Assembly (NCBI RefSeq): GCF_003130405.1
Contig: NZ_QEAS01000003.1
Location: forward strand, 324,174-372,384
Direction: 5' to 3'
Source of the DNA: Pararcticibacter amylolyticus
GTDB lineage: Bacteria > Bacteroidota > Bacteroidia > Sphingobacteriales > Sphingobacteriaceae
Length of the DNA stretch: 48,211 nt
Shown one piece after another: positions 9,819-39,120 of the stretch (position 1 is the stretch's first letter; each line of letters begins with the position of its first letter). The notes under the pieces were generated by a model, which was given only the letters and a program-made list of their open reading frames with translations, made no database searches and was not told the DNA's origin. The translations under genes and the position numbers were made by a program.

Positions 9819-9826
9819 CAAAAGTA
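9819..9826 (-). promoter_or_regulatory. Candidate -7 promoter element of the tandem susCD operon
   Basis: The minus strand reads TACTTTTG, a match to the Bacteroidota -7 consensus TAnnTTTG, about 45 bases upstream of the SusC ATG at 9773. No convincing TTG/TTTG -33 box is found 19-23 bases upstream, which would suit an activator-dependent promoter. It lies between the candidate terminator of the HTCS gene and the operon. Confidence 0.45.
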
Positions 9827-9862
9827 GATCCCGGAGCAAGAGCGAATGAGGGTATAATTCAT

Positions 9863-9893
9863 AAAAAAAGGGGGGGCAGTTCGTTTAACCCCC
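9863..9893 (-). terminator. Candidate intrinsic terminator after the HTCS gene
   Basis: On the minus strand GGGGG, a 12-base loop and CCCCCCC are followed by seven T residues. The stem is short but pure G-C. It lies about 95 bases past the HTCS stop at 9986 and before the SusC promoter, so it would separate the regulator from the transporter operon. Confidence 0.5.
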
Positions 9894-9985: not shown

Positions 9986-12900
9986 TCATTTTACCAGTTT
10001 CCCGTTCAGCTTAAAATTATTGCTAAGAGGCTTTCTGTATTTTTTGATGTATTCGGAAGGCTTCATTTCGAATAGCTTAAAAAATTGCTCACGGAAATAT
10101 TTAATATCACTAAACCCGGCCCGGAAAGCGGCCTCATTAACATTGCAGCTTGTATTAATGAGTACTTCCGCCGCCTTACGCAAACGAATAAATCTGATAA
10201 ACTCATTAATAGATCTCCCTGAAATGGATTTAACCTTTTTGTAAAGGCTGGAGTGACTCATTCCTAACTCAGAGGAGAAAACCTTTATATTAAAATCGGT
10301 GTCATCAAGATGGGCTTCAATAACAGTGATACACTTTTTCAGAAAGTCGCTGTATTCTGATGGTATCTGGAAATCATTTCTCTGCAACGTAACTTCATTC
10401 AGGAAATACTTCTGTAAGCTTTTGCGGCTTCTGATTATGCCGGCAACCCTCGCAATCAGCAAGTCTTTTTCAAAGGGCTTTGTGATATAGTCATCGGCGC
10501 CTCCCTCAATTCCTTTAAGTTTTATTTCTGACGAAGAACTCGCGGTAAGCAAAATGACCGGGATATGATTCAGAGCAGGATCCTCTTTTATTCTTGCGCA
10601 TAGCTCAATACCTGAAACGCCGGGCATAACCACATCAGAAATAACAATATCGGGTTGATACCTGGTAATTAAAGAGTATCCCTCTTCTCCATCCCCGCAT
10701 GTATATATGATGTACTCATCTTGAAATATACTTTTAATATAGTTGCGGATTTGAATATTGTCGTCAACGATTATCATAACAGGCCGTTCCGAGACAATAT
10801 CCTTTGCAGCCTCCGGTGCGGCTTTCTCTGAAGACGCTTCCAAAGAAAAAGAATTGACATCAATGAGTTCTTCAAGAAAAACAGAACTTTCACATACGTC
10901 TTCGAATATTAAAGATGAATGAAAGTGATCTTTACCTTTCAAAAAAGTGAGTTCAAAACAAGTTCCTTCTCCCTGTTTGCCCGAATAACCTATACTTCCG
11001 CGATGCGCTTCTATGAATTTCTTTACCAGGTAAAGACCTATCCCGAAGCCGGTTTGATGATTACTCTCTCTTACGCGATAAAACTTTTGAAAAAGAGCAT
11101 CTCCAATTTCCTCCGGAATACCGCAGCCATTGTCTGAGACGAAAACTTTCACATACTTATCCGTGGCTACTATTTCCAATGTAACACGTCCGCCGTCACT
11201 GGTATATTTTAACGCATTATTGATCAGGTTAAACAAAACGATTTCAACTTTCTCCCTATCGACAAACAAGTCGACTTGCGTCTCCCTGCAAATAATTTGA
11301 TAATTAATATTTCGATATGACGCCTGCTGACTAAAACACAAAAAAACTTCCTTACAGAGATCCACAAAATTCAGCTTGACAACCTTTAATTTGTCTTCAT
11401 TACAATCCGCTTTTCTAAACAGCAACAGTTGATCTACAAGACTTAGCAGGCGACGGGAATTCCGGTAAACAACCGACAACTCCTGGCTATCAATTATTCT
11501 GCCGGTGCTGTACAACATTTCCTTTACAGGATTTATGATGAGTGTCAATGGGGTTCTGAATTCATGAGCTATATGAGTAAAGAAAGAAAGCTTTTTCTCA
11601 TTGAGTTCTTTCTCCTGATCAATTTTTAAATTAACCAGTTGAATTTCATATTTCAAAAGAGCCTGTTTCTTCTGATAGGCGATGTAAGCATATACCACCG
11701 TCACACCCAAAATTGAGTACAACAGCCATGCCCACCACGATCTCCACCAGGGCGGCAGAATAACGACGTTGATATATCTCTCGGGGCAATTCTTATCCCA
11801 TATTCCATCAGTATTGGTAGACTTAATCCTTAATTTATAATGGCCTTCCTGGAGACGCGTATAATAGGCTGTTCTTGCTGTGCCACAATAATTCCAGCCT
11901 TTATCCCAGCCCTCAAGATAATAAGCATATCTTATTTTCTCCTGTGCAGAATACTCCAGGGCTGCGAAGTCCACGGATAACACAGCTTTATCGTAAGGTA
12001 ATGTAATGTCGGTAACATCGTAAATGGTTTTCCCCGGCGCATAGGAGTGATCTTTCTCAAAAGGAACATTATTAATCCTCAGACCCGTAAGAATGACTTT
12101 AGGAAAAGTAGAATAAGGCCTTATCTTACCGGGATGAAAGACATTAAACCCTTTAATGCCGCCAAACAAGAATTCACCGGTACTTAATGAGGCAGCTGCA
12201 TTATAATTAAACTGATTGCTTTGAAGCCCGTCAGACTCATAAAAGTTCTTGGCTTTTTTAGTTTCCGGATTAAATTTACAAAGGCCTTCAAATGTACTCA
12301 ACCAAAGACTTCCTTCTTTATCTTCCAGAACAGAAAGTATAGAATTGCTTGTCAGGCCTTCAGCTTCCGAAAAACGCTGGAAACTCCCGGTCTTCGGATT
12401 GAAATTTAATAACCCTCCGCCCTCGGTTGCAATCCAAAAGTTACGGCGGCGATCTTCCAGAATAGCTCTCACCGCATATCCAATGTGATAGATTATATGC
12501 TTTTTATTGCCAGGATCGATCCTGACGAGATCAGAGAAAGTTCCTCCCCACAAATTACCATTCCGGTCTTCGGCAAGGGTGATTATATTCTTAAGATCTT
12601 TGCTGAATAGTTCAAACTTATCCGTCTTTCTGTTCAAACGGTAGAGGCCCCCTTCCGTACAGGTACCAGCCCAAAGATCTCTGTGGCTGTCTTCGAAAAG
12701 GCTCCAAACATTCCAGTCATAATATCCGAAAGATGAATTATAACAAGGATACAGCTTAAAAGAATGGCCCTCAGTGACCCTGTTAATCCCACCGCCATAG
12801 GTAGCCAGCCAAATCTGGCCCTGGTAGTCCCGGACTATCCTGGAAACATTGTTGTTGCTCAGAGAGCCGCTACTGCCTGTATGAACATAGTTCATAAACG

Positions 12901-14065
12901 TATTTTTTTCCCTATCCCAGTAATTCACCCCATCACCGTCTGTGCCGATCCATACATTTCCAGACCTTTCTTCGCAAAAAGAAATAATGAAATTACTGCT
13001 GACGCTATTTTTCCTGAGCGGATCATGCTTAAAAGTCTGGAAACCGGATTTTTTCTGATCCAGTATATTAACTCCCCCTCTTAGTGTACCGATCCATATT
13101 CTGCTATCTTTATCCTGGAAAACAGCGTATACAGCAGAACTGGTTAAGTTGCCGGAAGCATGATCTATATAACGAAACGTTTTCGAGGCTATGTTGAGAA
13201 CATTAACACCGCCACCATCCGTTGCTACCCAAAGCTCACCATTCCTGCTTAAACACATTTGCACAACCTGGTCGGCTGACAGTTCTTTCTTATTAAGCCT
13301 GTAGCTTTCAGTGATTTTCTGTTCACGTAAGTTGTAAGCGTGCAACCCTAACTCTCCGCCAATCCATACATTGCCATGATTATCCGGTTCAATACACCTG
13401 GCAGTTCGGATCTCACTGTTTACCAACCTGACTGACGACGATTTAAAATCAAAAAGAGCCAATCCTTCTCCTTGTATAAACAGCCAGAGACGTCCGGCTG
13501 AATCCCCTTTAATTGCCTGAACATGATAATCCGCCAAAACTCCATGGCTACTTTTAAAAGGCACCTGTACCGGATGAAGAGCATCTTTACGTTTTAAAAG
13601 TAAGCCCATACCGGCGGTTCCGGTAAAAAAATTACCATTTCTGTCACGTTCCAGGCAATTAACCACATTTGTCATCTTCCGGAGCTTCTTATCAGTTGCT
13701 GAAAGAAAAGACAGGGGAACAAACGAAGACGATGCAATCCGATAAATCACTCCTCCACGTTTGGTCCCTACCCAAATATTGCCGTCATTGTCTTCATTTA
13801 TAGCGGTGATCCAATTGTTAACCAGCGATGATGAATCACCTAACCGGTTACGAAATACCTTAAAGCTGTATCCATCATACCGGTTTAGACCATCAAACGT
13901 ACCAAACCACATGAACCCGCGGCTATCCTGAAAAATGGAGGTCACCGCATTATTGGACAGACCATTCTCTATTCCAAGATATTGCAGGGAAGGAATAGTT
14001 GTAGCATTTACACTTGCTAAAAAAGACAGAAAAAAGAAAAAAAAGTAAATTTTTCTCATAAGCAT
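9986..14065 (-). CDS. Hybrid two-component system sensor/regulator (HTCS)
   Basis: This 1359-residue protein joins a periplasmic sensor, histidine kinase, receiver and AraC output in one chain, the classic Bacteroidota polysaccharide-locus regulator. In order: signal peptide/first membrane segment (1-21); Reg_prop propeller repeats (about 30-650, many GNIWVGT/GGGV repeats); a Y_Y_Y domain (about 690-770); a transmembrane segment (about 774-797); HisKA with phospho-acceptor His834 in HIAHEFRTPLTL; HATPase with the N box near 949 and DNGCGIP at 978-984; a receiver with Asp1101/1102, phospho-acceptor Asp1144, Thr1174 and Lys1196; and an AraC helix-turn-helix (about 1255-1345). All key residues are present, so it should be active. 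The start is ATG 14065 or 14059. A paired CGTTTCA repeat and a TAAATTTG box lie upstream, suggesting autoregulation. It should bind an oligosaccharide in the periplasm and activate the locus. Confidence 0.97.
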   Translation of the reverse strand: MLMRKIYFFFFFLSFLASVNATTIPSLQYLGIENGLSNNAVTSIFQDSRGFMWFGTFDGLNRYDGYSFKVFRNRLGDSSSLVNNWITAINEDNDGNIWVGTKRGGVIYRIASSSFVPLSFLSATDKKLRKMTNVVNCLERDRNGNFFTGTAGMGLLLKRKDALHPVQVPFKSSHGVLADYHVQAIKGDSAGRLWLFIQGEGLALFDFKSSSVRLVNSEIRTARCIEPDNHGNVWIGGELGLHAYNLREQKITESYRLNKKELSADQVVQMCLSRNGELWVATDGGGVNVLNIASKTFRYIDHASGNLTSSAVYAVFQDKDSRIWIGTLRGGVNILDQKKSGFQTFKHDPLRKNSVSSNFIISFCEERSGNVWIGTDGDGVNYWDREKNTFMNYVHTGSSGSLSNNNVSRIVRDYQGQIWLATYGGGINRVTEGHSFKLYPCYNSSFGYYDWNVWSLFEDSHRDLWAGTCTEGGLYRLNRKTDKFELFSKDLKNIITLAEDRNGNLWGGTFSDLVRIDPGNKKHIIYHIGYAVRAILEDRRRNFWIATEGGGLLNFNPKTGSFQRFSEAEGLTSNSILSVLEDKEGSLWLSTFEGLCKFNPETKKAKNFYESDGLQSNQFNYNAAASLSTGEFLFGGIKGFNVFHPGKIRPYSTFPKVILTGLRINNVPFEKDHSYAPGKTIYDVTDITLPYDKAVLSVDFAALEYSAQEKIRYAYYLEGWDKGWNYCGTARTAYYTRLQEGHYKLRIKSTNTDGIWDKNCPERYINVVILPPWWRSWWAWLLYSILGVTVVYAYIAYQKKQALLKYEIQLVNLKIDQEKELNEKKLSFFTHIAHEFRTPLTLIINPVKEMLYSTGRIIDSQELSVVYRNSRRLLSLVDQLLLFRKADCNEDKLKVVKLNFVDLCKEVFLCFSQQASYRNINYQIICRETQVDLFVDREKVEIVLFNLINNALKYTSDGGRVTLEIVATDKYVKVFVSDNGCGIPEEIGDALFQKFYRVRESNHQTGFGIGLYLVKKFIEAHRGSIGYSGKQGEGTCFELTFLKGKDHFHSSLIFEDVCESSVFLEELIDVNSFSLEASSEKAAPEAAKDIVSERPVMIIVDDNIQIRNYIKSIFQDEYIIYTCGDGEEGYSLITRYQPDIVISDVVMPGVSGIELCARIKEDPALNHIPVILLTASSSSEIKLKGIEGGADDYITKPFEKDLLIARVAGIIRSRKSLQKYFLNEVTLQRNDFQIPSEYSDFLKKCITVIEAHLDDTDFNIKVFSSELGMSHSSLYKKVKSISGRSINEFIRFIRLRKAAEVLINTSCNVNEAAFRAGFSDIKYFREQFFKLFEMKPSEYIKKYRKPLSNNFKLNGKLVK

Positions 14066-14101: not shown

Positions 14102-14109
14102 CAAATTTA
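14102..14109 (-). promoter_or_regulatory. Candidate -7 promoter element of the HTCS gene
   Basis: The minus strand reads TAAATTTG, an exact match to TAnnTTTG, 37 bases upstream of the ATG at 14065. There is no well-spaced -33 box (the nearest TTG is 24 bases away). The paired CGTTTCA repeat lies 31 bases upstream, as at the GH92 gene. Confidence 0.5.
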
Positions 14110-14139: not shown

Positions 14140-14168
14140 CGTTTCATTTGTATGCTGTAATCGTTTCA
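14140..14168 (-). promoter_or_regulatory. Candidate AraC-type operator, paired CGTTTCA repeats (site A)
   Basis: Two direct copies of CGTTTCA start at 14140 and 14162, 22 bases apart (TGAAACG in the orientation of the HTCS gene). Similar pairs with 21-base spacing occur at 29760 and 34928, also upstream of locus genes. AraC-family proteins typically bind direct repeats about two helical turns apart, and both regulators in this locus end in AraC domains. It probably activates the HTCS gene itself. Confidence 0.5.
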
Positions 14169-19696: not shown

Positions 19697-19747
19697 AATT
19701 TTGATTTAGAAGTTGTTGACCTTATAATTCGACAAAAAAAGTCCCTG

Positions 19748-19769
19748 TAATAACCTAAACGGGTTATTA
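19748..19769 (-). terminator. Hairpin between fecR and the STN-type susC, possible terminator
   Basis: An 8-base perfect inverted repeat (TAATAACC / GGTTATTA, 6-base loop) is followed on the minus strand, after eight bases, by seven T residues. It may end the sigma-fecR transcript before the susC gene, or act in the susC leader. The stem is A/T-rich and the T-run is offset, so the call is uncertain. Confidence 0.35.
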
Positions 19770-19799
19770 TAATATCTCTAGCTGGGACTGACTTCATGA

Positions 19800-19828
19800 A
19801 CGGTAGTGTTGGCCCACTGCCGTTTTTT
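19800..19828 (+). terminator. Hairpin with plus-strand T-run in the fecR-susC gap
   Basis: ACGGTAGTG and CACTGCCGT form a 9-base stem with one G-U pair and a 6-base loop, followed on the plus strand by six T residues. No plus-strand gene ends here, so it may act on antisense transcription. It may also serve on the minus strand as the 3' structure of the fecR transcript. Confidence 0.4.
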
Positions 19829-19881
19829 CTAAAAAGAGTTCTATGTTTTCATAATTATTCCTTTGATTTTAATCAGTTAGT

Positions 19882-20943: not shown

Positions 20944-21063
20944 CCTGCTTATTTATAAAAGGTGTTTACTACTATTATCCTTGTTTCTGTAAATTCTACT
21001 GGTTAGGGAAGAAAAAAAAACAACAACTAAAACAATCAACTCATTTACAGTTAATTAATTTCT

Positions 21064-21663
21064 TCAAAAAACAATCTTCGGTAAAAGAGAAACGAGTAAC
21101 AAAACCTCGCTGAACCAGAATTTCCTGAGATTACAGACGGCATCATAAAGCAAATTATAAACGGATTGCCGGTTAAGCCCCATGACCTGAGCAATTCTGG
21201 CATGATCCAGGTTTTCGTAGAACCGGAGATATAATATTTCTTTTTGTCTGCGGGGCAGACGGTTCAGGGTATTTAGAATGCGAAGTCTGGTTTCGTTTCT
21301 ATTTTGCTCCTCGATCATTTTATCTTCCACACTAAAATCAACCTCAAAGGAATAGTCGGTATCCGCCAGATTATCTGAATTCCACTTATCTTTTTCTTTG
21401 AAAATGCGGAAACGAAGGGATTTTAACAAATAAGATTTAACCGAAGGAGTTTGATTAATGTGGAGTCTGCAATTCCAAAGCGATAGGAAAACATCCTGGA
21501 TGCAATCCTTCACAAAAGCTTCATCCTGAACAAACCGGAATCCATAGGTATACATGGGACTCATGTACCTCTTTATGAGAATATTGAAGCAAACCCGGTC
21601 TCCGTCTCTGAACTTACTCCAGAGTTCATTATCTGAAATCCCGCTGTCTTTTCTTGATTCCAT
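21064..21663 (-). CDS. ECF-type RNA polymerase sigma-70 factor
   Basis: This 199-residue cytoplasmic sigma factor is of the size usual for the Bacteroidota polysaccharide-locus ECF group. Sigma region 2 lies at about 24-90 (YGFRFVQDEAFVKDCIQDVFLSLW) and sigma region 4 with its helix-turn-helix at about 125-185 (LPRRQKEILYLRFYENLDHARIAQVMG). The hydrophobic C-terminal tail (EVLLLVSLLPKIVF) is a common feature of this group. It heads the sigma-FecR-SusC-SusD set on the minus strand and should direct transcription of the SusC/SusD pair, perhaps of the arabinofuranosidase genes too. The ATG at 21663 is the only good start. Confidence 0.94.
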   Translation of the reverse strand: MESRKDSGISDNELWSKFRDGDRVCFNILIKRYMSPMYTYGFRFVQDEAFVKDCIQDVFLSLWNCRLHINQTPSVKSYLLKSLRFRIFKEKDKWNSDNLADTDYSFEVDFSVEDKMIEEQNRNETRLRILNTLNRLPRRQKEILYLRFYENLDHARIAQVMGLNRQSVYNLLYDAVCNLRKFWFSEVLLLVSLLPKIVF

Positions 21664-25603: not shown

Positions 25604-27460
25604 CTATTTTCCCTGCATCTTTACCAATGAAGGATTATACAACTTTTGCGTTACTGACTTCAATTTTGATTCAGGAACCTTTATTACTTTCCTGTCGTAG
25701 GTCATCAATCCGTTCGTTTCCACCTCCACGTCGGTTGTCTGTGTGTAAACTGCGGCCGATAAACCGGACTTAATTAATGACTCCAGGTCATCCATGAATT
25801 CAGAATACCTTTTAAACAGATCGTCAGCGTTCTTAAAGCTCTGGTAGCCCCAGTTGTCCTTTTGCTGCCATACATGCCCGTTTACAGGCAGGCCCAGGCC
25901 ACCAAACTCTCCTAACACAAGTGCCCTTTCTTTTCCAAAAAGCTGAGGATCGGGCATAGCAGGTTCCGGATAAGTATGCAGGTCAACTATATGCCCCGTT
26001 TGATAAAAGTTTCCACCGCTCGCACTGTTTATAAGGCGTGAAGGATCCTTTTTTATGGTCCATTCAGTGATTTCCACTGTTTTAAACTGCCCCCAGGCTT
26101 CATTAAAAGGTGTCCAGACAACGATTGATGGATAGTTATATAAGGCATCAATAATAGCATTCCACTCTTTCCGGTAGTATCCTTCAGATTCCTTTGAACG
26201 TTGCTTTTCATTTGCCCGGCCAAATACCCCCGGACGCGAATCCCACCTGTTCCCCAAATCGCCGCTCGGCATATCCTGCCAGACCATTACCCCCATTTTA
26301 TCACAATGATAATACCAGCGGGCAGGCTCTACTTTAATATGCTTTCTGATCATATTAAAGCCCATATCCACCGTTTTCTCAATATCAAATTTCAACGCTT
26401 CATCTGTTGGAGCGGTATATAATCCGTCAGGCCACCAGCCCTGGTCAAGAGGTCCGTACTGAAAAACGAACTTATTATTCAGAAGCATTCTCTGGATTCC
26501 GTTGGCATCCTTTCCGAGGGAGATCTTGCGCATGGCAAAATAACTTTTTGCCTCATCCACTACCTTTCCGTTTCTCACAACAGAAAAACGCAGGTCATAT
26601 AAAAAAGGATTTGAAGGCGACCACTCCTTCGGATTATTAATAGTAAGAACAGCTTCCGCACCTGCGTTTACCTCAGCTTCGGCAATCTTTGCCTGCCCGT
26701 CCCATGCAGAAATCCTAAAAAGGTCTCCCGGCTTCGAAGCCGTCACCACAGCCTGCACAGAAAGAGTCTTCCTGTCAAGATCGGGAGTCTGCCTCACAGC
26801 AGAGATGTAAGTCTGAGGAACCGCTTCGAGCCAGACAGTCTGCCAGATACCTGTAGCCGGGGTGTACCAGATTCCTTCAGGCTTCCTTACCTGCTTGCCT
26901 CTCGGCTGCGGCCCCTGGTCTGTCGGGTCCCATACTCTTACCACGAGGTCCTGTTTACCGCTGCCTTTAAGAAAAGATGTAACGTCAAAAGAGAACGGAT
27001 CATTTCCGCCCTGGTGAGTGCCCACCCTCTTTCCGTTTACAAACACTTCTGTTTCCCAGTCGACCCCGCCAAAATGAAGCAGGACCCTGTTTCCCTTCAT
27101 GGAGGGCTGGGGAGTAAAGCTTGTCTGGTACCAAAGCGTACTATCTTTTCCCACATTCCTCCCCACTCCTGACAAGGATGACTCTATTGCAAAAGGAACA
27201 AGTATCTTCCCCTGGTATGAAGAAGGCCGGGCCGAACTTTTCGCATTGACCGAATAATTCCAGAGACCATTCAGGTTCATCCAGTTGGGTCTTACAAACT
27301 GAGGTCTTGGATATTCAGGCAGCACAGCTGAAGGATTGACCTGTTCACTCCACTTTGTGGAAATTTTGCCGGGCACAGGACGCCATCCGGTACTCTGGGC
27401 GTGTAAAAGAGAAATCTGACAGCACAGGAGAAGAAGAGGGGTAAGAAAAATTCGTTTCAT
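25604..27460 (-). CDS. GH2-family glycoside hydrolase, specificity unknown
   Basis: The start at the ATG 27460 gives a signal peptide (MKRIFLTPLLLLCC, ending LHAQ). The frame is open to 27502, but that would overlap the previous gene's stop at 27492. The product is 618 residues. Order: sugar-binding jelly-roll (about 50-215, with FGGVDWETEVFVNGKRVGTH), immunoglobulin-like domain (about 215-315), and a TIM barrel with acid/base Glu454 in PFNEAWG and nucleophile Glu518 in VLGEFGG. It lacks the extra C-terminal domains of LacZ-type galactosidases. GH2 covers beta-galactosidase, beta-glucuronidase, beta-mannosidase and alpha-L-arabinopyranosidase, and I cannot choose among them. It follows the GH127 gene by 31 bases and precedes a strong terminator. 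Confidence 0.9.
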   Translation of the reverse strand: MKRIFLTPLLLLCCQISLLHAQSTGWRPVPGKISTKWSEQVNPSAVLPEYPRPQFVRPNWMNLNGLWNYSVNAKSSARPSSYQGKILVPFAIESSLSGVGRNVGKDSTLWYQTSFTPQPSMKGNRVLLHFGGVDWETEVFVNGKRVGTHQGGNDPFSFDVTSFLKGSGKQDLVVRVWDPTDQGPQPRGKQVRKPEGIWYTPATGIWQTVWLEAVPQTYISAVRQTPDLDRKTLSVQAVVTASKPGDLFRISAWDGQAKIAEAEVNAGAEAVLTINNPKEWSPSNPFLYDLRFSVVRNGKVVDEAKSYFAMRKISLGKDANGIQRMLLNNKFVFQYGPLDQGWWPDGLYTAPTDEALKFDIEKTVDMGFNMIRKHIKVEPARWYYHCDKMGVMVWQDMPSGDLGNRWDSRPGVFGRANEKQRSKESEGYYRKEWNAIIDALYNYPSIVVWTPFNEAWGQFKTVEITEWTIKKDPSRLINSASGGNFYQTGHIVDLHTYPEPAMPDPQLFGKERALVLGEFGGLGLPVNGHVWQQKDNWGYQSFKNADDLFKRYSEFMDDLESLIKSGLSAAVYTQTTDVEVETNGLMTYDRKVIKVPESKLKSVTQKLYNPSLVKMQGK

Positions 27461-27491
27461 TGAGTTCAATATTATAAGATTGCGATATTTT

Positions 27492-29558
27492 TTAATTAAC
27501 AACCGGGAATGAGGATATTCTCAGCCTTGAACCTCCCATCGGGACTAGGGTAAGCTTCACTTTTTCAGTATTTACCCTTACCGGACTTTGAGGCAGAACG
27601 GACACCAGGCCATGCTCATCAATTTTCCAGTCGGGCAGCTTCCTTCCGGTCGCGACAATTTGGATCGGGGCTGTTTGATTCGTAAACGGATTATCATCTG
27701 ATGGCCATGCCCGCTTTTGAACCTTAAATGATGTTTCCGGATTTGCAGTATTAATGACAAGACCGAAGTTCCAGTCGGAAGCAGGATGTATCTCGAAAGA
27801 AGGCCATTTTGCAGGATCCGCTTTTTCCTGCCAGCCCGAATCTCCGATTGCAGTTTCCTTACTATCCTTCTTAATATAATTCTCTTTTATATTGAGGGAA
27901 TAAGTAAGAGGGCCGTAATTCACGCTGACGCTGTTCTTGTTCTTTTCCCAGGTACGAACCTTCAGCTGCATCGGCAGCGTCAAACTTATCTTATCGCCAT
28001 TCTTCCATAAATTGGAGATCTTCACATACTGTCCGGATTCAGCCTTTACCGCTATCGCCTTTCCGTTCAATTTTACAGAAGCCTGCCTGCACCATGACGG
28101 AATTCTCAGGTAAAGCGGGAAGCTGACATCAGAAGCAGTCCTGACCGTGAGTTCCACAGACTCTTCAAAAGGATATTTCGTGACAGCAGATAATGTAACT
28201 TCCTTTCCATCTCCTACTTTTGCTGTCACGTCTCCCTGCGCGTATAACTGAGCCGCCAGCCCCCTGTCGGGAGTAGCCATCCAGCTGTTTTCCGCGTAGT
28301 ATACCCACCCTGCAGCATGATTATGCTGGCAGCAACGGCTGCTGAAAGGATTCATCATCAGAAAGGGCCCCGAGTTATCAATGCCCGGATGATGGTTCTT
28401 GCTGTCACTGATCACCATGTTAGGTGCAGTAAGATACCGGAGAGCTTTATAGTCGGGCATAAATGCCGCCGGAAAACTATTGAATGCAATGTCTTCACAA
28501 TTATCAGCCCAGTATGGATCGCCGGTAGACCGTAACATCATCTGGTCTGAGGTCATCTGCTCTACAAACCCGCAGGTTTCGGTGGCCTGCCGGGGATCAT
28601 CATATCCTTTCCTGGCATTTTCGTCAGCTCCGAACATTCCGCCTGGCACATGTCCATAGATCTCCCTGATCAGCTTAAAGTTGTTATAGGAAGCGTTAAG
28701 GTCCTTTACATCATGACTTAGCAAATAGTACTGAGCCGGTTCGCGGAAGCATTCCGCGATATTGACATTGTGCCAGTTGGGCAAATTGTCCGCCTGCCTC
28801 CAGTTAGCCGTGTTCCGGTCCGTTTTCGCTGCAAGATCAAGCAGCCATTTATCTCCTGTTATATTATACAGCCAGAATACGCTGTACAGATTATCGCCCC
28901 CCCGGCTGTTTTCCCAGTAATCTTCCAAAAATAAGCTGTCGGGAACAGACAACTGCCATTTGAAATATTTCGTCATAAAATCAATTACGCGCTTGTCACC
29001 GGAATATTCATAATAAGATTGCAGGCACCAGATCATCGGCATGTTCGTCCAGAGATCCCTTTTCCCTTTACCCTTTTCAACATCAGGGCCAAAATCTCCG
29101 TTATCCCTTTGATTGCTGAGCACTGCCTCAATCCAGAACTTCGCGTCGCTGATCATTTTAGGATCATTTAGCATATACCCGATATTAGCATACCCCTTCA
29201 GCCAGTAGGGCAACTCTTCCCATCCATATTTCCCCTTTCCCTCCTTATTCAGCCAGGCATTATCTTCCTTTGAAAGCCAGATACTGATCTCTCCCAGGTT
29301 GCCCGTTAATCCCTCACGCTGAAGAACCAATGCTTTTTTAAGCCACCCACCCGGTTTGAACGATGTAACAGGCAGTTTCATGAACGGCTGCTTTAATAAA
29401 GGTGCGCGGTTGTTCATATAAAACTTGTTCACTTCCGATGTCTCAGGCTTTGAGACGACCTCTGTTTTAATACGGCTTTGTGCCAGTCCGGGCTGTACAG
29501 ACGAGCACAGCAGAAGTAATGATACCCCGATTGCAGCCCTTTTTGAAAAGTTATTCAT
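27492..29558 (-). CDS. GH127-type beta-L-arabinofuranosidase (DUF1680 family)
   Basis: The ATG at 29558 gives a signal peptide (MNNFSKRAAIGVSLLLL, ending GLAQ). The frame is open to 29657, but the added residues look non-coding. The product is 688 residues. An (alpha/alpha)6 barrel is followed by beta-sandwich domains (PLYLRIPSWC). In the characterised Bifidobacterium enzyme HypBA1, a Cys3-Glu zinc site contains the catalytic Cys. The same pattern is visible here: Glu327 and Cys329 in TETC, then Cys409-Cys410 in SRCCQHN, 80 residues later. It should release beta-L-arabinofuranose, as found on hydroxyproline-rich glycoproteins or pectin side chains. GH146 is an alternative assignment. It is first in a two-gene operon with the GH2 enzyme. 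Confidence 0.88.
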   Translation of the reverse strand: MNNFSKRAAIGVSLLLLCSSVQPGLAQSRIKTEVVSKPETSEVNKFYMNNRAPLLKQPFMKLPVTSFKPGGWLKKALVLQREGLTGNLGEISIWLSKEDNAWLNKEGKGKYGWEELPYWLKGYANIGYMLNDPKMISDAKFWIEAVLSNQRDNGDFGPDVEKGKGKRDLWTNMPMIWCLQSYYEYSGDKRVIDFMTKYFKWQLSVPDSLFLEDYWENSRGGDNLYSVFWLYNITGDKWLLDLAAKTDRNTANWRQADNLPNWHNVNIAECFREPAQYYLLSHDVKDLNASYNNFKLIREIYGHVPGGMFGADENARKGYDDPRQATETCGFVEQMTSDQMMLRSTGDPYWADNCEDIAFNSFPAAFMPDYKALRYLTAPNMVISDSKNHHPGIDNSGPFLMMNPFSSRCCQHNHAAGWVYYAENSWMATPDRGLAAQLYAQGDVTAKVGDGKEVTLSAVTKYPFEESVELTVRTASDVSFPLYLRIPSWCRQASVKLNGKAIAVKAESGQYVKISNLWKNGDKISLTLPMQLKVRTWEKNKNSVSVNYGPLTYSLNIKENYIKKDSKETAIGDSGWQEKADPAKWPSFEIHPASDWNFGLVINTANPETSFKVQKRAWPSDDNPFTNQTAPIQIVATGRKLPDWKIDEHGLVSVLPQSPVRVNTEKVKLTLVPMGGSRLRISSFPVVN

Positions 29559-29731
29559 ATATCCTTGTGTATGAGTGTGTGTTGCGGCGATAGAGAGGAG
29601 CCGAAGCGCGGCGCACATCCTGTGATTTTCTTTCAGAAGGAAAAATGAAAGAGACACATAGCTTGTTCATTTGAAAACCGGCAAAAAGCCAAATGAGCAC
29701 GGGCATAATAGAGTTAGTTTTTCGTACAGTG

Positions 29732-29739
29732 CAAATAAA
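29732..29739 (-). promoter_or_regulatory. Possible -7 promoter element of the GH127-GH2 operon
   Basis: The minus strand reads TTTATTTG, one mismatch from TAnnTTTG, 21 bases downstream of the paired CGTnTCA repeats. That is one helical turn closer than at the HTCS and GH92 genes. It would give a leader of about 165 bases. Confidence 0.3.
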
Positions 29740-29759: not shown

Positions 29760-29787
29760 CGTATCATTATTTCTCTGATTCGTCTCA
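29760..29787 (-). promoter_or_regulatory. Candidate AraC-type operator, paired CGTATCA/CGTCTCA repeats (site B)
   Basis: CGTATCA at 29760 and CGTCTCA at 29781 are direct repeats spaced exactly 21 bases, each followed by TT. They match the pairs upstream of the HTCS and GH92 genes and lie about 200 bases upstream of the GH127 ATG. This is probably the binding site of one of the AraC-output regulators. Confidence 0.5.
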
Positions 29788-32523: not shown

Positions 32524-34800
32524 CTATTTAAGAACGGCTCCGCCGGAAAGTGAAAATGGCTTATCCGAATCGCTTAACTTTATGCCTGTAGCCGGCTTGT
32601 CTTGCATATTAAATTCAAGCTTTCCTCCTTTTACAATATCAGAATACCGCAGGAAAGTTGGTGTATAGGCTTTTCCGTTCAGCGTAGCTGATCCTATATA
32701 TACATTATCCGAACTGTTGTCATTAGCCTGAATAACAAATTTCTTCCCGTCTTCCATGGTAATAGTGGTCTTTCTGAATACGGGACTGCCTATTACGTAC
32801 TGGTCGGTTCCCGGACAAACGCTGTAGAAGCCCAGAGCACTCAGGACGTACCAGGAAGATGTTTGCCCCTGATCCTCGTCACCCGGGTAACCGTTTTCAG
32901 TTGAATTGTAAAGCCTGCTCATTACCTGCCTGGCGTGATATTGGGATTTCCATGGCTGTCCTGCATAATTATACAGATACACCATGTGCTGGATAGGTTG
33001 ATTTCCGTGTGCGTATTGCCCCATATTAGCCATCACCATCTCCGTCATCTCATGGATCATATCTCCGTAAGTTCCGGGATTTACGCGGTTAGGCTCCGAA
33101 AACACCGAATCGAGCTTCGCTGTAAAATTTGCTTCTCCTCCCATTAATTTAATGAGCCCCTGAATGTCATGAAAAACCGACCATTGCCAATGCCATGCAT
33201 TTCCCTCGGTATAGGGACCGCCCCACTCTACAGGATCAAAGTTATTTTTCCACTCCCCCTTACTATTTTTACCTCTCATAAAGCGGGTGGCAGGGTCATA
33301 CACGTTCCGGTAGTTGAACATCTGGCGTTCGAAGATCTTTTCGTAAAAAGGCTGGCCTGTTTCTTTAGCAAGCTGATAGCCGCAAAAATCATCGTAAGCA
33401 TATTCCAGGGTTTTGGCTGTAGCTTCTCCATATTCGGGATAGGGCACGTATCCCAGCTGATAATATTCTTTCCAGCCGTGACGACCATTTGCCGGCCCCC
33501 AGGGACCTTTGTTTGTAGCTTCATGCAGATATGCCTCAAGCGCTTTTTTCGGATCGAACGTCCTGATGCCCTTTGCCCACGCATCAGCAAATAGTGAAAT
33601 GGCATGGTTACCGATCATGCTCCCCCCTTCACCAGGGAAAGACCAGGAAGGCAGCCAGCCGCATTGATCATATGCCGCCAGCATGGCCTGCATATAGCGG
33701 CCCTGCATAGTAGGATGAAGAAGTGCAGTTAAAGGAAACTGACCCCGGAAGGTGTCCCAGAAGCCGGTGTCGGTAAACATATATCCCGGATAGACCTTTC
33801 CGTCGTAAGCGCTGTAATAATATGGCTTTCCATCTTTATCATATTCGAAGAACTGGCGCGAAAAAAGGCTTGCTCTGAAGAAGCATGAATAAAAGGTTGC
33901 CTTCTCTTCCTCTGTTCCCCCCTCTACCAGGATGCGGCCCAGATGATCATTCCAAACTTTCGCTGCCGCATCGCGGGTGGCTTCGAGCTTTTTAAAACCG
34001 CCAAGCTCTCTTTTCAGCGTAATCCCGGCCTGCTCATGGCTTATATAAGAAGAGGCAACCTTCGCCTGCACAACCTCCCCTTCCTTAAATTCAATAAATG
34101 CCCCCGCTCCTTTTCCTTCTTTTTCGCTGGTTCCGGCGGCTATCGTGTTACTCGCATTATCCCAGGTGCCGTATGATTTGATCGGTTTGTCGAAAACCAC
34201 TACGAAATAGTTCCTGAAGTTTTGAGGTACATAATGCCCGTTATTCACATATCCGATGATCTTTCTTTCAGATGGAATGATTTTCACCATACTCATTTTG
34301 GTATATCCATCAAGAACAATATAGCTCTTACCTCCTTTTGGAAAGCTGAACCGAAGATGAGCGCCACGTTCAGTAGGTGCCATCTCTGTGGTAATACCGT
34401 TATCCAGTTTCACCTTATAATAATGAGGTTTAGCAATTTCGTTCTTATGACTGAAGGCGGCAGCCCGCTCATCTTCATTCACCTTCAGCGTACCAGTAAC
34501 CGGCATGAACGAAAATACTGCGTAATCATTGCTCCATGAACTGCACTGATGGGCCTGCTGAAATCCGCGGATCGTCTCCTTAAAATACTGATACTTCCAC
34601 CCGTCGCCGTTCCGGCCTGTCTGTGGAGTCCAGGTATTCATTCCAAACGGAAGTGCTGTGGTGGGATAGGTATTTCCTCTTGTCAGTTCGTGCTTCGAAT
34701 TGGTTCCCTGCAAAGTGTTCACATATTGTACAAGATTGTGGGTTTGGGCATTAGCAATCCTGCCAATGAAGAAGAGAACAAATAAATACTTCAGTTTCAT
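32524..34800 (-). CDS. GH92 exo-alpha-mannosidase-family enzyme
   Basis: This 758-residue secreted enzyme (signal peptide 1-18, ending ANA) belongs to the calcium-dependent alpha-mannosidases of GH92. The N-terminal beta-sandwich starts at the conserved VQYVNTLQGTNS, and the catalytic (alpha/alpha)6 barrel follows. Conserved stretches are DTGFWDTFRGQFPL (about 344-357), SFPGEGGSMIGNHA (about 387-400), EGNAWHW with Glu532 at the expected general-acid position, and YPGDEDQGQTSSWY with Asp641/Asp643 at the expected base and calcium-binding positions. The linkage (1,2, 1,3 or 1,6) cannot be read. In an arabinose-oriented locus it may trim mannose from plant glycoproteins. It is a single-gene unit with the paired CGTCTCA operator upstream. 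Confidence 0.94.
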   Translation of the reverse strand: MKLKYLFVLFFIGRIANAQTHNLVQYVNTLQGTNSKHELTRGNTYPTTALPFGMNTWTPQTGRNGDGWKYQYFKETIRGFQQAHQCSSWSNDYAVFSFMPVTGTLKVNEDERAAAFSHKNEIAKPHYYKVKLDNGITTEMAPTERGAHLRFSFPKGGKSYIVLDGYTKMSMVKIIPSERKIIGYVNNGHYVPQNFRNYFVVVFDKPIKSYGTWDNASNTIAAGTSEKEGKGAGAFIEFKEGEVVQAKVASSYISHEQAGITLKRELGGFKKLEATRDAAAKVWNDHLGRILVEGGTEEEKATFYSCFFRASLFSRQFFEYDKDGKPYYYSAYDGKVYPGYMFTDTGFWDTFRGQFPLTALLHPTMQGRYMQAMLAAYDQCGWLPSWSFPGEGGSMIGNHAISLFADAWAKGIRTFDPKKALEAYLHEATNKGPWGPANGRHGWKEYYQLGYVPYPEYGEATAKTLEYAYDDFCGYQLAKETGQPFYEKIFERQMFNYRNVYDPATRFMRGKNSKGEWKNNFDPVEWGGPYTEGNAWHWQWSVFHDIQGLIKLMGGEANFTAKLDSVFSEPNRVNPGTYGDMIHEMTEMVMANMGQYAHGNQPIQHMVYLYNYAGQPWKSQYHARQVMSRLYNSTENGYPGDEDQGQTSSWYVLSALGFYSVCPGTDQYVIGSPVFRKTTITMEDGKKFVIQANDNSSDNVYIGSATLNGKAYTPTFLRYSDIVKGGKLEFNMQDKPATGIKLSDSDKPFSLSGGAVLK

Positions 34801-34889: not shown

Positions 34890-34897
34890 CGAAAATA
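34890..34897 (-). promoter_or_regulatory. Candidate -7 promoter element of the GH92 gene
   Basis: The minus strand reads TATTTTCG, one mismatch from TAnnTTTG, 31 bases downstream of the CGTCTCA pair. This is the same distance as at the HTCS promoter. There is no -33 box at the expected position. Confidence 0.35.
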
Positions 34898-34927: not shown

Positions 34928-34955
34928 CGTCTCAATTACTATCCATTTCGTCTCA
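34928..34955 (-). promoter_or_regulatory. Candidate AraC-type operator, paired CGTCTCA repeats (site C)
   Basis: Two identical CGTCTCA copies start at 34928 and 34949, exactly 21 bases apart, in the same orientation as sites A and B. The site lies 128 bases upstream of the GH92 ATG and about 205 bases upstream of the sensor-kinase start, so it may act on one or both. Spacing, orientation and repetition upstream of three locus genes support a real regulator site. Confidence 0.55.
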
Positions 34956-35159: not shown

Positions 35160-38100
35160 TTGAACGGGAAACAATTATTCACCTTTATAACTCTCATCCT
35201 TCTTACAGGGTGTGTAACGGCTCAGCCTTATTATTTCAAACGCTATGAAGTTGAAAGCGGCCTTTCTACCAACACTGTGTACTGCTCGCTGCAGGACAGG
35301 CATGGTTTTCTCTGGTTTGGTACGATCGACGGGCTGAACAGATTCGATGGATATTCATTTAAGGTGTTCAGACCTGACAAAAGCAGGAAAGGCAGTATTG
35401 GAAACGGTTTTGTTATTAGTCTCTGTGAGGATAAAAAGGGCATTATATGGGCCGGAACAGAAAACGGATTATACCAGTATGACGCCGTGACGGAATCGTT
35501 TTTACAGATTAAGCAGACCAAAAACATGACCATCACGAATTTGAACGCATCTTCGGACGGCAACATCTGGTTTAGTGCCCGCTCTGCTATCTATTGTTAT
35601 TTCCCCTCCACCAACCATCTGCGTCTTTACCAGTCTAAAAACCATCCCGATATTACCACCCTGGTTGTGGATAGCTGTGGTACCGTATGGGCAGGTACCT
35701 TTTCCGGAAAACTATGCAGGCTTGTACCCGGAAAAAGCAAACTGCATATCTCCGACCTTTATACCCACTCTTCATTTACAACCTCCAGGATGGTTACCAG
35801 AATATTTCCGGTAAATGACAAGTTCCTGTTCGCAGGCACCTCAGCCCAGGGACTAAAACTGTTTAACAGGCGAAATAACACATACGAGGATCTCCCGCTT
35901 TACAACAAAAACAAAACACCGGTATATGTAAGAGATTTCATACATGATAAAGAAGGCCGTTACTGGATCGCAACAGAAGTGGGGCTTTTTATTTATGATC
36001 TGAAGACCAGGACCTTTGAAAATCTGGTAAAAGATCACAATAATCCATACTCGCTATCAGATAACGCAGTGTATACTTTATGTAAGGAGCGCGAAGGAGG
36101 AATATGGGCGGGGACTTTTTTCGGAGGACTAAACTACTTTCCCAAACAATATAATCTTTTCGAAAAATACTTCCCGGATAATGGTGCAACCTCTATCAGC
36201 GGTTCCGCCGTAAGGGAAATCTGTTCTGACGGAAAAGGCAATATCTGGATCGGGACAGAGGATGCCGGATTAAACAAATTCGATCCGGCTAACGCCACGT
36301 TTAAGCATTTCTTATCCGCCGGTGATAAAACCAACCTTTCTTACAACAATATCCATGGTTTACTAGTCGACTCACAGAAATTATACATTGGTACCTACGA
36401 ACATGGCCTGGATGTCATGGACCTGAACACCAGCAAGATCATAAAACACTTTGAGGCAGGCGATACCCGCGGCTCCTTAAAAAGCAATTTTATTACAACC
36501 TTCGGAAAAAGCAGACGGGGAGTAATGTATGTAGGAACATCAAGCGGGCTTCAAACATTCAATCCTCAAACAAACCAGTTCGGCCAGATTACCCTGGGCG
36601 ATGGGTTCCAGCCTTTTATTAACAGTATTACGGAGGATAGTTCCGGGAACATCTGGCTTAGCACATTAAGGGAAGGTGTCTTCGTAATTGAACAGAAAAC
36701 CGGTAAAGTACGCCTGATCCAGCATGATCCGAAGCGAAGTAACAGTCTCAGCAGCAACAGGGTGAACTGCATCTTTGAAGCTTCAGACAAAACAATCTGG
36801 ATGGGAACCGAGGGTGAAGGTTTATGCATGCTCGATAAGAATGGTCAAACCTTCACCCGGTATAGCACGAAGGACGGCTTTCCAAGTGACTTTCTCTTCG
36901 AGATACTGGAAGATTCCCGTAAAAATCTCTGGATCAGCACTTCGGGGGGTCTGGTATGTTTCAATCCTTATACTAAAGCGATCAATGTGTTCACCAAATC
37001 CAGCGGACTTCTCAATAACCAGTTTAACTATAGTTCTGCGTTTAAAGACACGGTTACTGGCTATCTCTATTTTGGAAGCGTCAGAGGACTGATACGCTTT
37101 AATCCCGACTCATTTACCAGGAACACATTTATCCCTCCCGTATACGTCACTGGATTTGAGGTAGATAATAAAGAACTCACGATCGATACTAAACACTCTT
37201 TACTGAAAAAATCGATGCTCTTTACCGACACGATTATTCTTCCTTACAACCAATCTACTTTCAGTATCAAATTTGCTGCCCTTACCTATACGGCTCCCGA
37301 GATGACAGAATATGCTTATAAGCTGGAGGGGCTGGACTCCAAATGGACGCATCTCAAAACTAACCGGCAGGCATATTTTACGGATCTTTCGCCGGGGGAT
37401 TATCTCTTTAGGGTGACAGCATCAAACAGCAGCGGTGTTTGGAACAAAATGGACAGAAAGCTTGCTATTATCATCCTTCCGCCATGGTGGGACACAGGAA
37501 TTGCGCGGGCGGGTTATACTGTTGCGGTTTTACTTTTAACCTGGCTAACTGTAAAGCAGTACCACAACAAGATAAGGGCAAGAAATAAAAGAAAGCTGGA
37601 AATGCTTACCTATCAAAAAGAAAAAGAGGTTTACCAGGCGAAAATAGACTTCTTTACAAATGTTGCACATGAAATACGGACTCCTCTGACATTAATAAAG
37701 GGACCTTTGGAGAAGGTTATGAAACGCGTGGAAGAAGTTCCCGCCATCGAAAGAAACCTCCGGATCATGGAGCGCAATACCGCACGGCTTCTTGAGCTCG
37801 CTACCCAGTTGCTCGACTTCAGACAGGTCGAAACGAATAGCTTTAGTCTTAACTTCCAGCCAATGGATATAAGCCAGCTTCTTAAAGAACTTCACCAGGT
37901 GTTCCAACCCACTGCCGAGCAGCAGAATATTCGTTTTGAGCTAGACCTTCCGGATCCCGCCGTAATTCTTAGTATAGATGCGGAAGCGCTCAACAAAATA
38001 TTAAGCAACCTGATTTCGAATGCTATTAAATACTGTGATCAGAAGGTCATGGTATCTTTCCGCACTCAGCAGTCCCCCGAAGGAATCGTCATAAAGGTGA

Positions 38101-38309
38101 AGAGCGATGGTGCCATCATTCCACAGGAATTGAAAGACAAAGTATTTGAAACATTCTACAGGATAAAAGGCAACAGGAAACAATCGGGTACCGGCCTGGG
38201 GCTTACGCTTTCGCGCTCTCTCGCCGAATTAATGAACGGAACATTGATATTGGATTTACCGGAAAATAACATGAATGTATTTACCTTATATTTGCCGGTG
38301 CAGTTATAA
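35160..38309 (+). CDS. Propeller-type sensor histidine kinase (HTCS lacking receiver and output)
   Basis: This 1049-residue membrane sensor matches the front two-thirds of an HTCS. In order: signal peptide (1-22, ending TAQ), Reg_prop propeller repeats (about 30-650), Y_Y_Y domain (about 695-772), transmembrane segment (about 780-798), HisKA with His837 in NVAHEIRTPLTL, and HATPase with the N box near 950-954 and GTGLGL at 1010-1015. The G1 box is degenerate: SDGAIIP where a DNGxGIP-like motif is expected. The start is a TTG at 35160. No in-frame ATG exists upstream to the stop at 35061, and TTG gives a perfect signal peptide. The matching receiver-AraC protein is encoded 22 bases downstream. 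It probably senses a locus glycan. Confidence 0.92.
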   Translation: MNGKQLFTFITLILLTGCVTAQPYYFKRYEVESGLSTNTVYCSLQDRHGFLWFGTIDGLNRFDGYSFKVFRPDKSRKGSIGNGFVISLCEDKKGIIWAGTENGLYQYDAVTESFLQIKQTKNMTITNLNASSDGNIWFSARSAIYCYFPSTNHLRLYQSKNHPDITTLVVDSCGTVWAGTFSGKLCRLVPGKSKLHISDLYTHSSFTTSRMVTRIFPVNDKFLFAGTSAQGLKLFNRRNNTYEDLPLYNKNKTPVYVRDFIHDKEGRYWIATEVGLFIYDLKTRTFENLVKDHNNPYSLSDNAVYTLCKEREGGIWAGTFFGGLNYFPKQYNLFEKYFPDNGATSISGSAVREICSDGKGNIWIGTEDAGLNKFDPANATFKHFLSAGDKTNLSYNNIHGLLVDSQKLYIGTYEHGLDVMDLNTSKIIKHFEAGDTRGSLKSNFITTFGKSRRGVMYVGTSSGLQTFNPQTNQFGQITLGDGFQPFINSITEDSSGNIWLSTLREGVFVIEQKTGKVRLIQHDPKRSNSLSSNRVNCIFEASDKTIWMGTEGEGLCMLDKNGQTFTRYSTKDGFPSDFLFEILEDSRKNLWISTSGGLVCFNPYTKAINVFTKSSGLLNNQFNYSSAFKDTVTGYLYFGSVRGLIRFNPDSFTRNTFIPPVYVTGFEVDNKELTIDTKHSLLKKSMLFTDTIILPYNQSTFSIKFAALTYTAPEMTEYAYKLEGLDSKWTHLKTNRQAYFTDLSPGDYLFRVTASNSSGVWNKMDRKLAIIILPPWWDTGIARAGYTVAVLLLTWLTVKQYHNKIRARNKRKLEMLTYQKEKEVYQAKIDFFTNVAHEIRTPLTLIKGPLEKVMKRVEEVPAIERNLRIMERNTARLLELATQLLDFRQVETNSFSLNFQPMDISQLLKELHQVFQPTAEQQNIRFELDLPDPAVILSIDAEALNKILSNLISNAIKYCDQKVMVSFRTQQSPEGIVIKVKSDGAIIPQELKDKVFETFYRIKGNRKQSGTGLGLTLSRSLAELMNGTLILDLPENNMNVFTLYLPVQL

Positions 38310-38331: not shown

Positions 38332-39120
38332 ATGACGGAACTTAAAAGTACTTCTGAAAAACCCACTGTATTACTGGTAGATGACAATGAAGATATCCTC
38401 GACTTCCTTGCAGACGATCTGGAAGAAAAATACACTGTCGTCACCGCGTTTGACGGGAAAGAAGCCCTTGATATTTTATTGAAGGAATCGGTTCAGCTGG
38501 TTGTCAGTGATGTGATGATGCCCGAAATGGATGGATTTGAGCTGTGCAGCACCATAAAATCAAATTTTGAATATTGCCATGTACCAGTGATCCTGCTGAC
38601 GGCCAAAAACACGCTGCAATCTAAAATCGAAGGCCTTGAACTGGGAGCCGATGCCTATATAGAAAAGCCTTTTTCTCCCGAATACCTTCAGGCTCAGATT
38701 GCTAATCTGCTCTCTAACAGAAATAAGATAAGAAACTATTTTGCAAGCTCTCCTAATGTTCATATCCGGACGATGGCTTATTCAAAAGCAGATGAAAGCT
38801 TCCTGGAAAAACTGAACGAGATCATTTATAAGAATCTGTCCAATATCAATCTGGATGTTGAGCATCTGGCTGCCTTTATGAATATGAGCAGACCTACTTT
38901 ATACAGGAAAATTAAAGCCATTTCTAATCTTACACCAAACGAGCTCGTAAATGTGACCCGCTTAAAGAAAGCTGCTGAGCTTCTCCTCGAAGGCAGCTAC
39001 AAGATCTATGAAATAGCTGATATGGTGGGTTATAGCTCGCAAACACATTTCGGCAGGAACTTTAGCAAGCAATTCGGGATGTCTCCCAGCGAATATCAGC
39101 AGAAAAAAGGTGAAGCCTGA
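38332..39120 (+). CDS. Response regulator with AraC-type DNA-binding domain
   Basis: This 262-residue cytoplasmic regulator has a receiver domain (about 10-125) with acidic-pocket Asp17/Asp18, phospho-acceptor Asp60 in VVSDVMMPEMDG, Thr90 and Lys112 (EKPF), all intact. An AraC helix-turn-helix domain follows (about 155-258, LDVEHLAAFMNMSRPTLYRKIK and GYSSQTHFGRNFSKQFGMSPSEY). Together with the kinase 22 bases upstream it is the exact second part of an HTCS, encoded as a separate protein. It is a strong candidate for binding the CGTnTCA pairs, particularly the one next to its own operon. The fused HTCS is the alternative. Confidence 0.95.
   Translation: MTELKSTSEKPTVLLVDDNEDILDFLADDLEEKYTVVTAFDGKEALDILLKESVQLVVSDVMMPEMDGFELCSTIKSNFEYCHVPVILLTAKNTLQSKIEGLELGADAYIEKPFSPEYLQAQIANLLSNRNKIRNYFASSPNVHIRTMAYSKADESFLEKLNEIIYKNLSNINLDVEHLAAFMNMSRPTLYRKIKAISNLTPNELVNVTRLKKAAELLLEGSYKIYEIADMVGYSSQTHFGRNFSKQFGMSPSEYQQKKGEA

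Follow-up and report, generated by a model that had tools for sequence, protein, structure and literature searches.

The Locus and Its Genes

The window, by which we mean the whole stretch of 48,211 nucleotides analyzed here, was assigned by Pfam on mechanically called open reading frames (ORFs). It contains two SusC/SusD pairs, the hybrid two-component regulator HTCS1, and a SusD3/SusC3 pair accompanied by FecR and an ECF sigma factor. Further genes encode two alpha-L-arabinofuranosidase-type enzymes, GH2, GH127, a GtaA-like protein and GH92, after which come the divergently oriented HK2 and RR2. The features discussed below are collected in Table 1.

Table 1. Genes, repeats and promoter elements of the window; positions are counted from its first base.
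Feature	Position	Strand	Remarks
Exact -7 element TACTTTTG	9819..9826	-	after the candidate HTCS1 operator
Candidate HTCS1 operator, CCCCCCC...ACCCTC	9848..9876	-	before SusC2; second half degenerate; read by eye
HTCS1, full hybrid two-component regulator	9986..14065	-	relatives' loci carry another repeat
Perfect -7 element TAAATTTG	14102..14109	-	offset 59 from S1
S1, TGAAACG-N15-TGAAACG	14140..14168	-	CGTnTCA at 14140 and 14162; before HTCS1; doubtful member
GH2 glycosidase	25604..27502	-	Pfam; overlaps GH127
GH127 (beta-L-arabinofuranosidase family)	27492..29657	-	Pfam; first gene behind S2
Candidate -7 element TTTATTTG	29732..29739	-	one mismatch; offset 48 from S2, closer than the usual offset by about one helical turn
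S2, predicted operator TGAGACG-N14-TGATACG	29760..29787	-	CGTnTCA at 29760 and 29781; before GH127-GH2
GH92 glycosidase	32524..34800	-	Pfam; proposed S3 target
Candidate -7 element TATTTTCG	34890..34897	-	one mismatch to TAnnTTTG; offset 58 from S3
S3, predicted operator TGAGACG-N14-TGAGACG	34928..34955	-	CGTnTCA at 34928 and 34949; before GH92, in the gap to the divergent HK2-RR2
HK2, propeller-type sensor histidine kinase	35160..38309	+	Pfam Reg_prop, Y_Y_Y; proposed RR2 partner
RR2, stand-alone response regulator	38332..39120	+	Pfam Response_reg, HTH_18; orthologs; proposed DNA-binding protein

Two ORFs, each in a frame of its own, encode HK2 and RR2. Pfam finds in HK2 a propeller sensor with HisKA/HATPase domains, and neither a receiver nor an HTH; RR2 supplies a receiver and an AraC-type HTH. 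The two proteins have the domains of an HTCS without being the single polypeptide of one, and we propose that together they form a split HTCS with RR2 as the detached response regulator.

Three Paired Repeats

Three gaps of the window each hold two copies of the word CGTnTCA. All six words lie on one strand, at the positions and with the spacings (22 bp in S1, 21 bp in S2 and in S3) that a sequence-only reading had reported for them. Read on the minus strand, S1, S2 and S3 point at HTCS1, GH127-GH2 and GH92, respectively. The single word is not enriched in the window, where it occurs 21 times with 16.0 expected, and 11 of 100 shuffles reach 21. A strict form of the pair, TGANACGA-N13/14-TGANACG, has four matches in the 6.31 Mb genome and its reversed control pattern has none. 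Three of the four are S1, S2 and S3; the other, at C137:20892, falls within an ORF and was disregarded. With a single match in the ~6.27 Mb beyond the window, ~0.01 would by our own arithmetic be expected per 48 kb, a figure to be taken as a guide only, the pattern having been derived from the window itself. The looser TGANACG-N14-TGANACG with up to two mismatches is not enriched genome-wide (332 matches vs 374 for the control) and is uninformative.

The sequence-only reading had joined the three pairs into one likely local regulon and had named PUL genes genome-wide and orthologous loci as places to look for the motif. This is partly supported and can be sharpened considerably. Outside the window, the motif does stand before PUL genes of this genome, and it is kept in related loci, which favors the regulon idea; genome-wide, the strict pair is rare and the loose pair is not enriched. 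In orthologous loci, it is the S2/S3-type motif that is conserved, around RR2 orthologs, and not S1 before HTCS1. A single three-site regulon was rejected because S1 departs from both the spacing and the motif class, so that only S2 and S3 fit. The proposed TTnAAC or TTTAAC tail was also given up, since it is not kept in the relatives. The relatives do keep A-rich flanks, a spacer GAAA and, at a greater distance downstream, an element resembling TAnnTTTG.

The Motif in Loci of RR2 Relatives

Matches to RR2 at E <= 1e-100 are present in 89 of 301 family genomes. The RR2 locus set consists of 70 of 96 match rows, the window included; 26 rows, mostly in the lower half of the list, were left out, and L132, L134 and L139 were excluded. 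The loci span 12.7 to 20 kb, and L131 and L136 are without RR2, hence counts per regulator have n = 68. Intergenic same-strand TGANAC pairs in these loci have a single preferred distance, with 30 pairs (in 26 loci) at 21 bp and no more than three at each of the other distances between 7 and 45 bp, although these counts are not independent since many loci come from near relatives. The coding sequence of the same loci holds two pairs at 21 bp. The earlier proposal of an AraC-type output domain and of repeats two helical turns apart is supported.

With up to two mismatches allowed, the motif is found in loci of RR2, GH127 and GH92 orthologs. It lies between HK2 and GH92 in G002 (locus L130), before GH92 in G003 (L131), before SusC and in the HK2 gap in G006, before SusC and GH2 in G020, before GH2 in G004, in the HK2 gap in G008, between GtaA and RR2 in G001, and near RR2 in G012.

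A matrix was made from 101 intergenic sites that deviate by one mismatch at most; the 84 of them lying 20–300 bases before a gene start collapsed to 59 non-redundant sites, whose consensus is approximately TGAGACAAAATGnnGAAAnATTGATACAAATTG. Trained without the window, it ranks S2 first (34.3) and S3 second (27.2) among window positions; the next-best score is 9.9, inside an ORF, and S1 has -9.6. In a two-fold held-out test, a score of at least 15 was reached in 34/35 and 32/35 RR2 loci, the two folds sharing close kin, and in 0/70 resampled loci and 0/40 of the HTCS1-type loci described below. Training on L153–L212 only gave scores of 19.9–39.7 for the ten loci of the first set, with 34.6 for S2 and 26.1 for S3. 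As expected of HTCS-type operators, these are direct repeats of ~21 bp conserved before PUL genes in related genomes. We predict, with a probability of about 0.86, that RR2, as the response regulator separated from its kinase in a split HTCS, has its operators in S2 and S3. The loci were chosen by RR2, so a neighboring regulator inherited together with it would formally be a possible reader of the motif.

Promoter Register

The -7 element has been published as TAnnTTTG and the -33 element as TTTG (PMC7366714). Offsets to such elements were counted from the first base of the distal half-site and scanned from 28 to 99. Of 101 sites scoring at least 15, the 88 that have a gene start within 350 bases were kept, 13 being left out, and these were reduced to 69 non-redundant sites. 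TAnnTTTG with at most one mismatch occurs at offset 58 or 59 in 36 of the 69 (four exact; two sites matching at both offsets are counted once) and in 50 of all 88, and a -7-like element at any other offset is found in at most three sites. The other 33 of the 69 are without a -7-like element at 58/59. In the search for a -33 element, TTG was found at offset 33–37 in seven of the 69; the TTG peak is at offset 30 (16/69), and this is the tail of the repeat, 28–29 bases before the -7-like element. The proximal half is close to the expected -33 position, which would suit class II-like activation.

S1 and RR2

RR2 might also read S1, as an operator with a spacer one base longer, and would then switch on HTCS1 and couple the two circuits. 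We put this at somewhat less than an even chance. When one spacer base is ignored, S1 scores 18.3, ahead of every other one-deletion match in the window (10.4 for the runner-up). Its perfect TAAATTTG is 37 bases from the start of the proximal half, like that of RR2 sites, and an exact -7 element has an intergenic frequency of 0.0009 per position and strand. Opposed to this are the ungapped matrix score, already given, and the spacing, since the 70 RR2 loci have one intergenic pair at 22 bp vs the 30 at 21. Moreover, no exact TGAnAC pair at 21–23 bp is found in the 400 bases upstream of 15 HTCS1 relatives, one own-genome paralog among them. L214 alone among the 15 has a one-mismatch pair at 21, which is by estimate at about chance level.

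S2 and a Paralog of RR2

The genome has a second HK/RR pair at C95:141158 (L149), which is 57% to RR2 and has altered HTH2 residues. Five own-genome sites (C95:110907, C95:136521, C95:145230, C84:275722 and C30:101082) have a sister motif whose end is TGAACAGA or close to it. These are presumed to be the paralog's; two of them precede GH115 and GH43 genes, and a -7-like element is at offset 48 in four of the five. The motif and the HTH2 helix of the paralog may have changed together. It is conceivable that S2 belongs to this paralog or is common to both regulators, but we think it unlikely. The presumed sites, TGAkACGAATCrAC...TGAACAGA, do look like the S2 distal half, TGAGACGAATC, and four of the five share with S2 the offset of 48. 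However, the proximal half of S2 is RR2-type (TGATACGA), the RR2 matrix gives S2 its 34.3 vs 12.8–18.1 for the paralog sites, and GH127 lies 13–16 kb from RR2 in G006 and G020. The combination of a paralog-like distal half and 48 register with an RR2-type proximal half would allow some shared control, with RR2 still the predicted reader of S2.

A Different Repeat in HTCS1-Type Loci

The sequence-only reading had treated the two AraC-output regulators as equal candidates for reading the CGTnTCA repeats. We compared the RR2 loci to a set of 40 HTCS1-type loci, 20 of them drawn, at >=39% identity, from 69 loci around HTCS1 relatives. The set includes paralogs, the own-genome L227 among them, and L229–L232 match over the C-terminal 60% only. 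The gaps of the 40 loci contain no TGANAC pair at any distance from 7 to 45, and the strict motif is in none of the 69 loci around HTCS1 relatives. A crude first search for an HTCS1 motif returned weak candidates only, and it was on inspecting them that a G-run repeat was recognized. Pairs of AGGGG[GT] 20–23 bp apart are found in 18/40 HTCS1-type loci vs 0/70 RR2 loci, with 2, 7, 7 and 3 loci at 20, 21, 22 and 23 bp, respectively. Written toward the SusC gene in the loci inspected, the repeat is ATTTACCCCC twice. A -7-like element follows the second C-run by 21–22 bases in 10/26 sites of this type.

The window itself has such a repeat before SusC2, which the strict AGGGG[GT]-pair scan did not list, and 9819–9876 on the minus strand is probably the operator and promoter of the HTCS1 circuit, to judge from the repeat and the exact -7 element behind it, which agree with the HTCS1-type motif and register. 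With that element at 9826–9819, the start of SusC2 would have to lie beyond the TTG of the called ORF, in the downstream direction, and may be the ATG at 9773, which is in frame.

That HTCS1, alone or together with RR2, binds the CGTnTCA repeats is thus very improbable, and HTCS1 was rejected as the motif reader. In its favor are the position of S1 before its gene and the 35% identity, over 252 residues, of its receiver-AraC part to RR2. Yet the TGAnAC repeat is absent from all 40 HTCS1-type loci, where the other repeat is found in 18, and the window's SusC2 promoter has the HTCS1-type repeat, though degenerate. The recognition helices also differ from those of RR2, which are strongly conserved across the 70 RR2 rows (RPTLYRK; SSQ.HFGRNF). 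The motif tracks RR2, and HTCS1 would be a separate circuit acting through another repeat, probably on the adjoining SusC/SusD pairs. Chance resemblance among A/T-rich gaps, which could appeal to the unenriched single words and loose genome-wide pairs, is scarcely credible as the source of all the repeats, and the 21-bp peak, the held-out matrix scores and the promoter register speak clearly against it for S2 and S3.

Two HTCS1 relatives, L016 and L017, have 31–33% identity over query residues 8–1345 and 8–1332 and lie on contigs labeled candidate division KSB1. KSB1 is outside the phylum to which HTCS are confined in PMC3878776, as far as the part of that paper used here goes.

Split and Fused Forms of the Regulator

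By the form of the kinase, the RR2 loci (n = 68) comprise 53 split, 13 fused and two in which no kinase gene was recognized alongside. One locus counted as split, L142, has a kinase-like ORF of just 148 aa. Sites scoring at least 20, with the window and three side loci removed, are present in 48/53 split loci, 12/13 fused loci and 2/2 loci in which no kinase gene was recognized; 6/68 have no such site. The two RR2 orthologs without a recognized adjacent kinase gene are in L141 (G001, 10044–10865) and L211, and the motif is still in the locus of each.

The 13 fused RR2-type HTCS group in a single clade (SH-aLRT 100), to which a split one is sister (83). A fourteenth fused HTCS, the distant own-genome L146 at 49% to RR2, falls outside this clade. 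The tree comes from a quick search and leaves 40 of 70 inner branches open, with the deep part unresolved. In the fused loci among L157–L203 the operator differs slightly, as in L187, where it is TGATACGTTTTGACTAATAATTGATATGATTTGG.

Proposed Targets of the Motif

The first gene behind the 88 motif sites is SusC in 44 cases, GH2 in 12, GH92 in three, GH127 in two and GtaA in one; 26 are unassigned. Pfam was run on nine of the 26, giving clear GH43 in L154 and L211, GH67 in L208, weak GH43 in L130 and L163, a weak GH5-type match in L133, FG-GAP/ASPIC in L166, and no match in L140 and L142. Operon neighbors add SusD, DUF3823, GH43 and GH67. The presence of SusCD, GH2, GH43, GH67, GH127 and GH92 behind the family motif suggests that the substrates are xylan- or arabinan-type glycans.

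Within the same genome, the fixed pattern with up to two mismatches has 26 matches vs seven for the control, from which it follows that some of them are chance. One match, C2:467399 on another contig, precedes a SusC-SusD-DUF3823 operon. Its SusC is the best of the 100 own-genome matches listed to the RR2-linked SusC of G006, at 47% identity; second among those listed is the SusC at C95:128751 (44%). In a comparison of the C2:467399 SusC with the three SusC of the window, C95:128751 not being included, 32 of 42 RR2-linked SusC of relatives match the former better. The other ten match a window SusC best, seven of them SusC3 and three SusC2. The simplest reading is that the regulator and its SusC partner have parted in this genome, while the operator stayed with the target.

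We propose that HK2 senses oligosaccharides in the periplasm and would then phosphorylate RR2. An RR2 dimer would place each AraC-type domain on one TGAnAC half-site, the two lying 21 bp apart on one face of the DNA. The promoter-proximal half would be 37–38 bases before the TAnnTTTG-like -7 element, near the place of -33, and from there RR2 could recruit RNA polymerase in class II fashion; the register is seen across relatives, and activation is what it suggests. The RR2 regulon would take in GH92 and GH127-GH2 in the window plus at least one SusC-SusD-DUF3823 operon elsewhere (C2:467399). In short, the sensor-regulator pair HK2/RR2 is predicted from sequence to switch on genes for digestion of plant-type sugars.

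Comparison to Known Systems

In the part of Ravcheev et al. (2013, PMC3878776) drawn on here, B. thetaiotaomicron has 36 HTCS, and Bacteroides HTCS operators are direct repeats of two conserved sites, on average 21 bp apart. The system described here has in common with these a direct repeat of that spacing before PUL operons and an AraC-type HTH, and a dimer on one DNA face was proposed there as we propose for RR2. The likeness is one of layout; the alignments of the 16 motifs in that paper are not part of the comparison. The Bacteroides HTCS is one polypeptide, whereas HK2 and RR2 are separate genes, and the fixed -7 register present here is not mentioned in that part of the paper. The 21-bp direct-repeat layout is therefore known; the motif, the split regulator and the promoter register are added here. 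Within the open-licence literature, supplements aside, we found no publication with this motif, such a split HTCS or a fixed -7 register, which is weak evidence of absence.

HK2/RR2 is like a classical two-component system in that the kinase and response regulator genes are separate, adjacent and in the same orientation. It is unlike one in its HTCS-type propeller sensor, in its HTCS-layout operator, and in having 13 relatives in which the orthologous output domain is fused into a full HTCS.

According to the portion of PMC4855328 considered, the HTCS of B. xylanisolvens PUL 43 regulates GH genes (GH67, GH10, GH2) in PUL 70, where there is also an ECF/anti-sigma pair, along with a SusC gene that is not lowered when the HTCS is mutated. 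The window is similar in that its GH genes behind RR2-type sites adjoin an ECF/FecR/SusC3 set without such a site. Control in PUL 43/PUL 70 was shown by mutation, and here it is read from sequence. SusC3/SusD3 (19697–21663) follow the ECF sigma/FecR pair, and their lack of an RR2-type site suggests that the GH genes and the nearest SusCD are under different regulators.

HTCS-type regulators are numerous per genome, and their targets beyond the local cluster are hard to name. The presumed operator of RR2 is defined narrowly enough to lead to a SusC operon far from the locus, and it can be told apart from that of the neighboring regulator in the same locus and from that of the paralog in the same genome. 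The operator class stays recognizable whether the kinase is split or fused. We give it even odds that HTCS-type regulators, fused or split, have one layout, with a 21–22 bp repeat, a half-site set by the recognition helices and a fixed distance to the -7 element that puts the operator near the -33 place. Two unrelated motifs, of the RR2 and HTCS1 classes, fit this, and one distant target was found in this way. If it is general, each of the dozens of regulators per genome could be paired with linked or distant targets from sequence alone.

Finally, the part of PMC11253607 used here deals with receiver-DBD inhibition in HTCS and an S/CHIP-DK motif, and by eye, the CHVP in the receiver of RR2 resembles its S/CHIP.
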